A DNA stretch of 23,143 nucleotides from Porphyrobacter sp. (GTDB lineage: Bacteria; Pseudomonadota; Alphaproteobacteria; Sphingomonadales; Sphingomonadaceae): positions 1 to 23,143 of the forward strand of contig JACIYY010000122.1 in the NCBI GenBank assembly GCA_014359685.1, in the 5' to 3' direction. Positions 18,455 through 23,143 of the stretch are shown one piece after another. The notes below the pieces were generated by a model. The model was not told the origin of the DNA and did no database searches. It worked only from the letters and a program-made list of their open reading frames with translations. Numbering within the stretch: position 1 is the stretch's first letter; every line of letters starts with the position of its first letter. The position numbers and the translations under genes were made by a program.

Positions 18455-18805
18455 ATGGACGACGCGGCTTTTCTAGAGCGCAAGTTTGAGCTGGACGGCG
18501 GTGGCCTGCTGGTGCGCTTCTACACGCCTTTCAAGGCTCCCGGCGGGGAGTTCCAATGCCAGTATTCGGTAGGATGGCCGGAGCAAGAAGTCCGGCGTTA
18601 CGCGTGCGGGCTGGACGGCGTTCAGGCGCTGATGCTGGCGATGCGGACCGTTCACACCGAGCTTGTCGAGAGCGACGCCTACAAGGGCGGGCGGCTTACC
18701 TGGTGCGGACAGGCTGATCTCGATCTTCCGCCTACTTGGGGCGGCGGATCGCTCTACGATGCTCCTCCCCCACCGGACGGAGATGCGCCGACGGGGCCAG
18801 CATAG
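18455..18805 (+). CDS. Small hypothetical protein, DUF6968-like
   Basis: A 116-residue protein beginning at ATG 18455 with GGAGG 5 bases upstream; an ATG-containing extension to 18422 lacks that support. It contains ERKFELDGGGLLVRFYTPF, a GLDGVQALMLAMRTVHTEL helix, then a glycine- and proline-rich tail. The arrangement recalls DUF6968 proteins of unknown function, but I cannot confirm this. There are no membrane segments or signal peptide. It lies just before an insertion sequence and ends about 38 bases from the transposase start, so its tail may be altered by the insertion. Confidence 0.65.
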   Translation: MDDAAFLERKFELDGGGLLVRFYTPFKAPGGEFQCQYSVGWPEQEVRRYACGLDGVQALMLAMRTVHTELVESDAYKGGRLTWCGQADLDLPPTWGGGSLYDAPPPPDGDAPTGPA

Positions 18806-18842
18806 GCTTTCCCACGAGCGCCTCATCTGATTCAGCTTCGGC

Positions 18843-19609
18843 ATGAGCCGATATGATCTTACCGACTTCGAGTGGCGCGTGATCGAGCCGCTCCTGCCCA
18901 ACAAGCCCCGAGGCGTGCCGCGCGTTGATGATCGCCGCACGCTGAACGGCATCTTCTGGGTGCTGCGCTCCGGCGCGCCGTGGCGTGACCTGCCGGAGCG
19001 CTACGGCCCGCGCACCACCTGCTACAACCGCTTCGTGCGATGGCGGAAAGCGGGCGTGTGGGACCGGCTGCTGGACGCCATCACTGCCGCCCACGACGGC
19101 GAGATACAGATGATCGACAGCACCTCCGTTCGCGCCCACCAGCAGGCCGCGACGGCAAAAAAGGGGGTCCAGATCACTGTCTCGGTCGATCACGCGGCGG
19201 GCTCACGACCAAGATCCACGTCGTCGTCGACGCGCAGGGCCTTCCGATCCGGCTCGGCCTGACCGCCGGGCAGAAGCACGACGGCCAGATCGCTGATACG
19301 CTACTCGACCACCTCGGGCCTCGCACCATCGTGCTGGCGGACAAGGCTTATGACGCCGACCGCATTCGCGCCCTGATCCAAGATCAGGGCGCCACGCCCA
19401 ACATCCCGCCGAAGAGCAATCGCAAGTGGAAGCCATGCTTCAGCAAGCGACTCTATCGAGAGCGCAACCTGATCGAGCGGTTCTTTTCCAAGCTGAAGCA
19501 CTTCCGCCGCATCGCCACCCGCTATGACAAACTCGCAGCCAACTTCCTCGCCATGGTCCAGCTCGCATCAGTGCGGCTGTGGCTCAGGGCTTATGAGTCT
19601 ACGACCTAG
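18843..19609 (+). CDS. IS5-family transposase made by -1 frameshifting (two overlapping frames)
   Basis: Frame 1 begins at ATG 18843 ([19 protein letters not shown], the IS5 N-terminal domain) and carries the first catalytic Asp in [11 protein letters not shown]. After the slippery site the product continues in the -1 frame as [16 protein letters not shown]. The second Asp is in [10 protein letters not shown] and the Glu in [18 protein letters not shown]. The joined product is about 255 residues, normal for this group, and the DDE set and both domains are complete, so the element may still be active. Without frameshifting, frame 1 runs on to 19262 and gives a short product that may act as an inhibitor. 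Confidence 0.9.
19157..19163 (+). other. Programmed -1 ribosomal frameshift site
   Basis: The heptamer A AAA AAG lies in the correct zero frame (codons GCA AAA AAG of the first transposase frame) and is followed by GGGGG. Slipping back one base here opens the reading frame that carries the rest of the catalytic domain. Confidence 0.85.
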
Positions 19610-21501
19610 ATTTCCACCTGGCTGCCCAGTTCCACCACCCGGTTGGTGGGCAGGTTGAAGAACTGCATCGGCGTGGCCGCGTTGCGCATCATCCATGCGA
19701 ACAGCTTTTCGCGCCACAGCATCATCCCCGGCCGGCGCGACGGTAGCAGCGTCTGGCGCGACAGGAAGAAGCTGGTCTTCATCATGTCGAACGGCGCGCC
19801 GCACAGGGTCATGGATTTGAGTGCGGCGGGCACGTCGGTCTCCTCCATGAAGCCATAGCGCAGCGTCACCCGGTAGAAGCCGTCGCCCAGCTGCTCGATC
19901 CGGTAGCGTTCCGCCGCATCGACATAGGGTTCATCGGCGATTTCGACGGTCAGCACCACCACCCGTTCGTGCAGCACCTTGTTGTGTTTGATGTTGTGAA
20001 GCAGCGCAGACGGCGTCCCGGTGGCCCCGGAATTCATGAAAATCGCCGTCCCCGGCACCCGCGCGGTCGAATTGCGCGCCGATTTGGCGAAAATATCGAG
20101 CGGAAGCGACACTTCCCCCATCCGTTCGCGCATCAGGCGGCGACCCTTGGCCCAGGTGGTCAGCAGCGTGAAGGCGACCCCGCCGACCAGCAGCGGGAAC
20201 CAGCCGCCATCGGGGATCTTGGTGGCGTTGGCCGCGAAATAGGCGCCATCGACGATGAAGAACACCAGCGCCACGGGGATCGCCAGCCATACCTTTCACC
20301 GCCACACCGCCAGCAGCAGCACCGCCATCAGGCAGGTGTCGATCAGCATCGCCCCGGTCACCGCAATGCCATAGGCCGAGGCGAGGTTGGAGGAATTGCG
20401 GAAGAACAGCACCAGCAGGATCACCGCGATGCACAAGGTCCAGTTGATCGCCGGGATATAGATCTGGCCCTGATGCTTGTGGCTGGTGTGGAGGATCGAC
20501 AGCCGCGGCACGAAGCCCAGCTGGATCGCCTGATGAGTGACCGAGAACGCGCCCGAGATCACCGCCTGGCTGGCGATGAAGGTGGCCGCGGTGGCCAGCA
20601 GCACCAGCGGCAGGCGCAGCGCCTCCGGCGCGAGGAAGAAGAACGGGTTGAGGATCGCCTCCTCCGCCGCCGCATCCCCCAGCGCGATGATCATCGCCCC
20701 TTGGCCGAAATAATTGAGCAGCAGGCACGGCATGACGAAGCCGAACCAGCCGAGCCGCATCGGCCCGCGGCCGAAATGGCCCATGTCGGAATACAGCGCC
20801 TCCGAACCGGTCACCGCCAGCACCACCGAGCCGAGCGCGAGGAAGGCGAGCCAGCGGTCGGTGACGAAGAACTGCACCGCATACCACGGGTTCAACGCCC
20901 ACAGGATCGCCGGCGCCTCCACGACATGCACGATCCCCAGCACCGCCAGCACGGCGAAATAGGCGATCATCACCGGGGCGAACAGCGCGCCCACGCGGGT
21001 CGTCCCGCGCTTCTGGATGACGAACAGCCCCACCAGCAGCACCAGCGCGATCGGGATCACCAGCGGATCGAGCCGCTCGTCCACCACGGTCAGCCCTTCG
21101 ACCGCCGACAGCACCGAAATCGCCGGGGTGATCATGCTGTCGCCGTAGAACAGCGCGGTGGCGAACACCCCCAGCATGACCGTGATCCAGCCATAGCCGG
21201 CGCGCCCGATATAGCGGCTGATCAGCGCCACCAGCGCCAGCGTGCCGCCCTGGCCCTTGTTGTCGGCGCTCATCAGGATGGCGACATACTGGATCGAGAC
21301 CACCAGCGTCATCGACCAGAAGATCAGGCTGACCACGCCGAGGATGTGCAGATCGTCGATCGCCAGCGGATGCGGGCCGCGAAAGGTTTCGCGGAACGCG
21401 TAGAGCGGACTGGTGCCGATATCGCCGAAGACGATCCCGATCGCCCCGACGGCCAGCGCCAGCTTGGCGGAGCCCCGCCCTTCCCCTGTGCCAGCGCTCA
21501 T
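19606..21501 (-). pseudogene. kup: Potassium uptake protein Kup, broken by an in-frame TGA
   Basis: Low-affinity K+/H+ symporter of the inner membrane. A single frame of 632 codons covers the whole family length, from [20 protein letters not shown] to the conserved C-terminal [12 protein letters not shown]. Motifs include [18 protein letters not shown] and about 12 hydrophobic segments before the soluble tail. The frame is interrupted by TGA at 20296-20298 (codon 402), between LLLAVWR and [13 protein letters not shown]. Relatives have Trp at this place, so TGG to TGA is the likely change. There is no frame change, so the two halves are one gene. A GTG at 20274 could restart the tail, but it would lack the transport core. 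The gene's stop TAG is formed at the edge of the IS. ATG 21501 is the family start; a TTG at 21537 is possible. A sequencing error is an alternative. Confidence 0.88.
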
Positions 21502-21639
21502 CGCGACATGCGGCCCCTCATCATCGGCCGGCTGCAATCTGCCGGCACCCGAAGGCGCGGCGCGTAGCAGCGGGCGCGAGCGGCTGCAATGGGAGCGGCC
21601 GGGCCGGGCGGCGAAACGCGCCGAGCCGTGCGGCGGGGG

Positions 21640-22190
21640 TCACAGCGGAGGGCGCTGCGGCGGGACCGATGGCGGCGGCGGGGCCGGGGGCGCAGGCGGG
21701 GCCGGGGGCGGCTGGCCGGCCGAGATCTGCCGCAGCAGGGCATCGAGGCGGGCGAGGCGCTGCGCCAGCGCGGCGCGGGCGGGATCGTCGGGGGCGGTCC
21801 CCGATGTCGTCCCCGGCGCGGCGAGAGCATCGGCCCAGATCGTGCGCCCGTCCATCACGCTGCCCTGCCGGATCAGCGCAAAGCCGAGGAAATAGGCCGG
21901 CGCGACGCTCGACGGATCGGCGGCGGCGGCGCGGCGGAAGGCGAGCAGCGCGGGTTCGGTCAGCCGCCCGCCGGCATGTTCGACCAGCACATTGGCCAGC
22001 GCCAGCCAGGCTTCGGCGTCCTCCGGATCGCGCGCCACCGCCTCTGCCAGCAGCGCGGCGGCATCGGCATAGCGCCCGCGCGCGGCGAAGGCATCGGCGG
22101 TCAGCACCAGCGGGCTGCGCGAACGCTCGGCCGGGGCGACGAAGTCCTGCCGCGCGGCTTTCAGCCACGGCCCGGCCCCGGTGGCATCGG
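21640..22190 (-). CDS. TPR protein resembling the C-terminal half of CcmI/CycH, 5' end missing
   Basis: About 183 C-terminal residues remain. They begin near WLKAARQDF and continue with SRSPLVLTADAFAARGRYADAA, tandem tetratricopeptide repeats (DPEDAEAWLALANVLVEHAGG and FRRAAAADPSSVAPAYFLGFALIRQG), and a proline-rich tail. This arrangement is like the periplasmic domain of CcmI/CycH, which hands apocytochrome c to the haem ligation machinery. The N-terminal membrane part is lost because the sphingomonad sequence stops near 22190-22203. Open reading continues upstream to 23094 in this frame but is antisense to a Pseudomonas-type gene and is not real coding. It lies upstream of kup on the same strand. 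Confidence 0.65.
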
Positions 22191-22200
22191 CGCGCGGACG

Positions 22201-22959
22201 GGTCTCAACCTGGTAGTGGTCCTGGCCATCGCCGCGCTGTTCACCGGGTTCTGGGCCTTGATCAACCGCCCGGTATCCGCCCCCGCCTGGCCGGAACAGA
22301 TTTCCGGTTTTTCCTACTCGCCCTTCCGTCTCGGCCAAAGCCCACAGAAGGGCCAGTACCCCAGCGAGGATGAGATCCGCCAGGACCTTGAGCAACTGAA
22401 CAAGCTGACCGACAACATCCGTATCTACACCGTCGAAGGTACCCAGGCCGAGGTGCCGCGCCTGGCCGAGGAGCTTGGCCTGCGCATCACCCTGGGAATC
22501 TGGATCAGCAACGACCAGGAACGCAACGAGCGGGAGATCGAAAAGGCCATCGGCCTGGCCAACACTTCGCGCAGCGTGGTGCGGGTGGTCGTCGGCAACG
22601 AGGCGTTGTTCCGCGAGGAAGTTAGCGCCGAGCAGTTGATCGGCTACCTCGACCGGGTCCGTGCCGCGGTCAAGGTGCCGGTGACCACCAGTGAGCAGTG
22701 GCACATCTGGAAGGAGCACCCGGAGCTGGCGAAACACGTCGACCTGATCGCCGCGCACATCCTGCCCTACTGGGAGTTCGTGCCCATGAAGGACTCGGTG
22801 GAGTTCGTCCTCGACCGCGCCCGCGAGTTGCGCAAGCAATTCCCACGCAAGCCGCTGCTGCTCTCGGAGGTCGGCTGGCCGAGCAACGGCCGCATGCGTG
22901 GCGGCGCCGACGCCACCCAGGCCGACCAGGCCATCTACCTGCGCACCCTGGTCAACACC
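22201..22959 (+). CDS. ndvB: Fragment of a Pseudomonas-type NdvB-like GH17/beta-glucosyltransferase
   Basis: An open frame without start or stop inside the segment, about 253 residues. It begins with a membrane segment (LNLVVVLAIAALFTGFWALI), followed by a glycoside hydrolase family 17 domain: ISGFSYSPFR, the VVVGNEALFR block with the acid/base Glu, and LLLSEVGWPSNGRMRGG with the second catalytic Glu. This matches the N-terminal part of the pseudomonad glucan glucosyltransferase (NdvB type, about 860 residues), whose GT2 domain should follow but is missing. Codon use and residues fit Pseudomonas, not the sphingomonad genes to the left. It breaks off near 22960 after YLRTLVNTL. Most likely a contaminant or chimeric fragment. 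Confidence 0.85.
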
Positions 22960-23055
22960 CTCGACACCGCCGCCATGGACCAGGCCCGCGCTCGTCAGCA
23001 GCAGCTGACCAAACCGGCCGGCTCCCTCGGCCAACTCGAAGGCCTGGCGATACGC
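22960..23055 (+). CDS. cobT: Fragment of cobT (N-terminal part), joined in frame to the ndvB fragment
   Basis: About 32 residues reading LDTAAMDQARARQQQLTKPA followed by GSLGQLEGLAIR. This is the conserved N-terminal part of nicotinate-nucleotide--dimethylbenzimidazole phosphoribosyltransferase (cobalamin lower-ligand assembly) as seen in pseudomonads. The protein's first ten or so residues are replaced by the ndvB fragment, and its homology stops near 23055. The two fragments share frame by chance or through short homology around CTCGAC. Not a working gene. Confidence 0.75.
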
Positions 23056-23143
23056 TCTGGCACGGCCCTCGGCAATGAGAGCGAGTCTCGACAACGACGT
23101 TTGATGAACATTTCGTCAGGGAGCTATCGCCCGAACCTGCGCT
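23056..23143. other. Unidentified terminal segment
   Basis: These last 88 bases do not continue cobT. No family is recognisable in either strand. The sequence is less GC-rich than the sphingomonad part, which fits a further short piece of foreign DNA. Confidence 0.4.

Follow-up and report, generated by a model that had tools for sequence, protein, structure and literature searches.

Introduction

Draft and metagenome-assembled genomes are known to carry contamination-derived misassemblies where their contigs end. Chimeric molecules have been described for phi29-type amplification: in the available parts of one report, the joined segments share overlaps of 2–21 bases and lie mostly less than 10 kb apart, and only some 28–35% of those more than 10 kb apart have such overlaps (PMC1855051); the available parts of a second give overlaps mostly of 5–8 bases, with a peak at 6 (PMC4595205).

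Here, we analysed a window that corresponds to a whole contig (C27) of 23,143 bases from a sphingomonad assembly of 1.93 Mb, which comprises 385 contigs and is 77.8% complete. At its extreme end, this contig carries a 943-base tail (22201–23143). As judged from its sequence matches, the tail is DNA of the Pseudomonas putida/mosselii group, and it almost certainly arose as an artefact, in the laboratory or in assembly, rather than through biology. It consists of three pieces, hereafter scraps 1 to 3, which adjoin the native genes as follows:

19606–21537, minus strand: native kup-type potassium transporter gene, the downstream neighbour of ccmI (PF02705 K_trans, E 7e-156 over 20299–21537)
21640–22200, minus strand: native ccmI-like gene with TPR models, truncated at the join by the loss of about 55 residues from its N terminus
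22200/22201, no strand: join 1, from sphingomonad to Pseudomonas, with Pseudomonas identity starting at 22201 in the aligned loci
22201–22962, plus strand: scrap 1, codons 7–260 of a glycosyltransferase 2 gene from Pseudomonas; its BLAST match to P. mosselii locus L023 has 94.7% identity
22958–22962, no strand: join 2, between scraps 1 and 2, with an exact 5-base overlap by comparison with Pseudomonas loci
22958–23055, plus strand: scrap 2, near-N-terminal part of a cobT gene (nicotinate-nucleotide phosphoribosyltransferase type; PF02277, E 7.6e-9)
23052–23055, no strand: join 3, between scraps 2 and 3, with an exact 4-base overlap by comparison with Pseudomonas loci
23052–23143, plus strand: scrap 3, Pseudomonas intergenic DNA cut by the contig end, 96% identical to genome G064

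Results

The switch from sphingomonad to Pseudomonas sequence

An abrupt change from sphingomonad to Pseudomonas-type sequence had been placed at 22185–22210 by the initial annotation, and it proved to be real. In a base-level comparison with six Pseudomonas loci, the match begins abruptly at 22201 and the sequence before it is unrelated; 75 BLAST matches to Pseudomonas loci likewise begin at 22201. From the native side, the ccmI frame was aligned to its counterpart in a genome of the same genus (G004) from residue 3 (base 22200) at 61% with HMMER, and from residue 6 (base 22191) with tblastn. Composition switches at the same place, as the fourth-order Markov log-odds score passes from −0.050 at 21751–22250 to +0.052 at 22251–22750; part of the training sequence for the sphingomonad model came from the window itself, left of the join. 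The reference means were +0.032 for 640 held-out Pseudomonas windows and −0.023 for 347 windows from the other contigs of the assembly, a set in which some 20 windows belong to four masked contigs and have a score of zero.

The native ccm–kup locus

The truncated gene has TPR models above the cut-off and the TPR_CcmH_CycH model below it (16.6 bits versus 42), and its TPR domain, along with its position after ccmG and ccmH in relatives, is that expected of CcmI. Its truncation was correctly noted at the outset, although the loss was overstated as the N-terminal half: relative to G004, about 55 of 224 residues are missing, which is a quarter. The fragment was matched in 52 of 59 genomes searched, the window's own genome counted. 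Among the 19 best-matching loci from other genomes, ccmG, ccmH and ccmI occur in this order in every one, and ccmG–ccmH–ccmI–kup is unbroken in 18; locus L021 carries ccmG–ccmH–ccmI, with no kup match within its short locus. The same junction of ccmI with Pseudomonas DNA was sought in these 19 loci and was not found. The families assigned in the locus were CcmH (PF03918), CcmF (PF16327) and K_trans (PF02705); the gene that we take to be ccmG, from its position, matches Redoxin/thioredoxin models.

A second contig of the same assembly (C133, 3102 bases) has ccmF and the first 86 bases of ccmG, where it ends, and this ccmG piece is 75% identical to G004 over 28 residues. Its end is likely the true neighbour side of the ccmI break and, together with the gene order of the relatives, indirectly indicates that the native sequence continues elsewhere. 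Since C133 carries ccmF and ends inside ccmG, the simplest reading would be an intact ccm–kup operon of which about 1 kb (by G004) was merely left unassembled between C133 and C27. A search for ccmH in the window's assembly was empty, as the gap predicts, a result to which we attach little weight given the lack of a positive control and the 78% completeness.

Two further features of the native region were recorded. The kup gene has an in-frame stop at 20296–20298 (minus strand), which yields frames of 413 and 222 residues, while in G004 it is one unbroken frame; the stop may be a true mutation or an error in the sequence. An IS4/5-family transposase gene at 18843–19609 appears as two overlapping frames, the first of which contains PF13340, and resembles frameshifting elements; no inverted repeat ends of at least 12 bases were found for it within 18700–19800.

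Composition of the tail

The initial annotation had described the strand opposite to ccmI, from about 22201, as a single pseudomonad gene lacking its start. The start is indeed absent, as the first six codons are gone if the ATG found 18 bases upstream in P. mosselii is taken as the start, but the gene breaks off again at 22962, on its 3′ side, and the tail is not one gene, with two further breaks inside it at 22958–22962 and 23052–23055. By chance, a single frame stays open from scrap 1 up to the end of the contig.

Scrap 1 holds 254 of 863 codons, with both ends cut. The full P. mosselii protein of 863 residues has a clear glycosyltransferase 2 domain that the scrap does not reach. Of the original GH17/glucosyltransferase label, the second part is thus borne out by a domain outside the scrap, and the N-terminal GH17 match is weak, with 11.8 bits for the fragment and 23.8 for the complete P. 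mosselii protein against a Pfam cut-off of 28.2. Two records titled “Pantoea sp. Cy-639” (L027) and “Pantoea sp. Ap-967” (L054) carry a P. putida-group gene that is 97 and 92% identical to the scrap, respectively, and for this reason they are probably misnamed Pseudomonas.

Scrap 2, of 98 bases, was found in all eight genomes compared at 87–94%, and the PF02277 match rises to E 1.2e-133 in the full gene, here called cobT. Scrap 3, of 92 bases, is intergenic in G064, where an M19 dipeptidase gene flanks it on one side and an LprI-like gene on the other. Its identity is 96% to G064, 94% to G070 and 84% to G060; in other genomes, the matches listed were at 75–79% or covered a short stretch only, and among them there was none in G067 or G068.

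Location of the source loci in Pseudomonas

The source loci were nowhere adjacent, whether in the eight genomes, in G067–G070 where located, or among the matches listed for 298 genomes. In each of the eight, the contig with cobT differs in size from the record with the gene of scrap 1, so that the two lie on different contigs. In G069 (BP8, one contig), scraps 1, 2 and 3 map to about 1.90, 5.24 and 0.17 Mb, respectively. The distance between scraps 1 and 2 is 157 kb in the complete genome G067, where their strands are opposite, about 4.5 Mb in G068, and 1.85 Mb in G070, which has scrap 3 on a different contig. Their relative strand, same or opposite, varies by genome. When the tail was searched against the 298 Pseudomonas genomes (283 matching) with two candidates scored per genome, no match among those listed crossed a junction and none extended beyond base 773 of 943.

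The identities for scraps 1, 2 and 3 were 95, 92 and 77% in P. mosselii G059, 91, 93 and 96% in G064, and 91, 92 and 94% in G070. Because no examined genome is closest to all three, the scraps derive either from an unsampled Pseudomonas donor or from several donors.

Overlaps at the internal joins

At join 2, the left source ends at 22962 in six of six loci and the right source starts at 22958 in four of eight, and later in the other four. At join 3, the left source ends at 23055 in two of five loci, and earlier in three, and the right source starts at 23052 in three of four, the anchor word not being found in the fourth (L114). Substitutions account for the limits that are absent in some relatives, namely those of the right source at join 2 and of the left source at join 3. 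The exact overlaps of 5 and 4 bases were thus measured on relatives rather than on the donor. Among 200,000 random joins of Pseudomonas sequence, overlaps of at least 5 bases arose in 0.85% and of at least 4 bases in 2.5%. Gapped comparison extended the resemblance to at least 10 bases at both joins, on account of which a longer overlap in the donor is possible.

Other Pseudomonas DNA in the assembly

A 16.8-kb P. mosselii locus matched the assembly at more than 79% only in the window (40 of 382 first-look candidates scored), the tail searched as DNA returned only itself (40 of 103 candidates scored), and the GH17-type scrap searched as protein had the window as its sole match. A non-random sample of 80 of the 385 contigs was also inspected, from which 22, each shorter than 3 kb and all N, were dropped; the 58 readable contigs (409,741 bases) gave no megablast match of at least 85% to 92 Pseudomonas loci. 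On these partial searches, the artefact looks local to this contig end.

The Markov score exceeded 0.02 in 0.6% of 2644 windows from the 58 readable contigs. The high-scoring end of C305 was considered as Pseudomonas and rejected, being native and 81–82% identical to two genomes of the same genus. The high-scoring end of C301 has matches only around a tRNA-Lys and, like that of C305, was not Pseudomonas within the searches made; further high windows were found, for example, in C31, C106, C29, C23, C32 and C201. The C301 sequence after the tRNA-Lys (L186, 11101–11538) is of atypical composition, with no match past the tRNA in the five genomes searched, and may represent an integrated element or a further end of foreign origin.

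Discussion

We infer that the fault is artificial rather than biological and that it arose at a wet-lab stage. The three Pseudomonas fragments and the sphingomonad DNA would have become linked in artificial chimeras, most likely during amplification or library preparation, a reading to which we assign a probability of about 0.74. According to this proposal, the foreign DNA would come from at least one Pseudomonas of the putida/mosselii group, either a contaminant or a member of the community, and the joins would most likely have formed when short fragments underwent template switching or end joining. The chimeric read path would then have been assembled faithfully at the contig end, with the true continuation, that is, the start of ccmI, ccmH and most of ccmG, left unassembled. 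A point against this reading is that the partial searches turned up little further Pseudomonas DNA in the assembly.

A considerably less probable alternative, though the strongest of those considered, is a software join, in which an assembler, a scaffolder or a gap filler would have extended the contig end with Pseudomonas reads that were present at low coverage in the same sample. The fragmented and incomplete assembly speaks for it, as do the lengths of scraps 2 and 3, which are about those of short reads, and the imperfect resemblance of at least 10 bases around joins 2 and 3. However, it needs two successive misjoins among Pseudomonas fragments as well, and the usual assembly k-mers are much longer than the exact overlaps of 5 and 4 bases. 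Chimeras formed at the library or amplification stage fit better than a k-mer misjoin because these overlaps look too short for the latter.

Recent transfer, in which Pseudomonas DNA was taken up by the sphingomonad and inserted in ccmI, had been offered as the alternative to a chimeric join, and the initial preference for the join is upheld by the unbroken operon of the relatives, the three distant fragments and the end of C133. The identity of the scraps to living Pseudomonas, at 92–96%, is what a recent event would leave, yet the tail comprises three cut scraps from distant loci at a contig end, both coding scraps are truncated, the start of ccmI is broken, the operon is unbroken in 18 of the 19 relatives' loci, and the far side of the break is accounted for by C133. 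A domain search of the tail at E up to 1 returned no mobile-element domain. We therefore rejected transfer as very improbable on the three-scrap structure, the gene order of the relatives and contig C133. Still harder to credit is the repair of a double-strand break in ccmI by microhomology-mediated end joining, with scrambled Pseudomonas fragments captured as filler DNA. Least plausible of all is a natural three-piece arrangement in an unsampled Pseudomonas, with only the join at 22201 artificial, which would agree with no examined genome being closest to all three scraps but requires two gene-truncating rearrangements about 95 bases apart and had no counterpart among the matches listed for the 298 Pseudomonas genomes at two scored candidates each.

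For quality control, bases 22201–23143 should be excluded from any inference of gene transfer into this sphingomonad, or of a cobT or GH17-type gene in its genome. More generally, what seems to be one foreign gene may be several scraps, and such a structure is a sign of an artefact even when raw reads are not at hand.

Compared with known systems, the tail shares with a horizontally acquired genomic island a foreign taxonomic signature beside native genes; unlike an island, it contains no whole gene, its source loci are distant, and the native operon apparently continues elsewhere. With contamination-derived misassembly at contig ends it shares a foreign end beside a gap, in an assembly that is fragmented and incomplete, but such misassembly involves one contiguous foreign segment, whereas the tail is a chain of three scraps. 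Phi29 amplification specifically, as a candidate route, would fit only in part, because in the available portions of the reports its chimeras mostly join segments less than 10 kb apart, and a minority of the more distant ones share such overlaps. The segments described there are usually inverted as well, while the scraps lie 157 kb to megabases apart, and the tail differs from most of these chimeras in that its segments come from another organism than the contig. Within the same portions, the chimeras nonetheless resemble the tail in their unconnected segments, their overlaps of a few bases and their several joins in a row (PMC1855051, PMC4595205), and the overlaps of 5 and 4 bases measured on relatives at joins 2 and 3 fall within the described range of about 2–21 bases.
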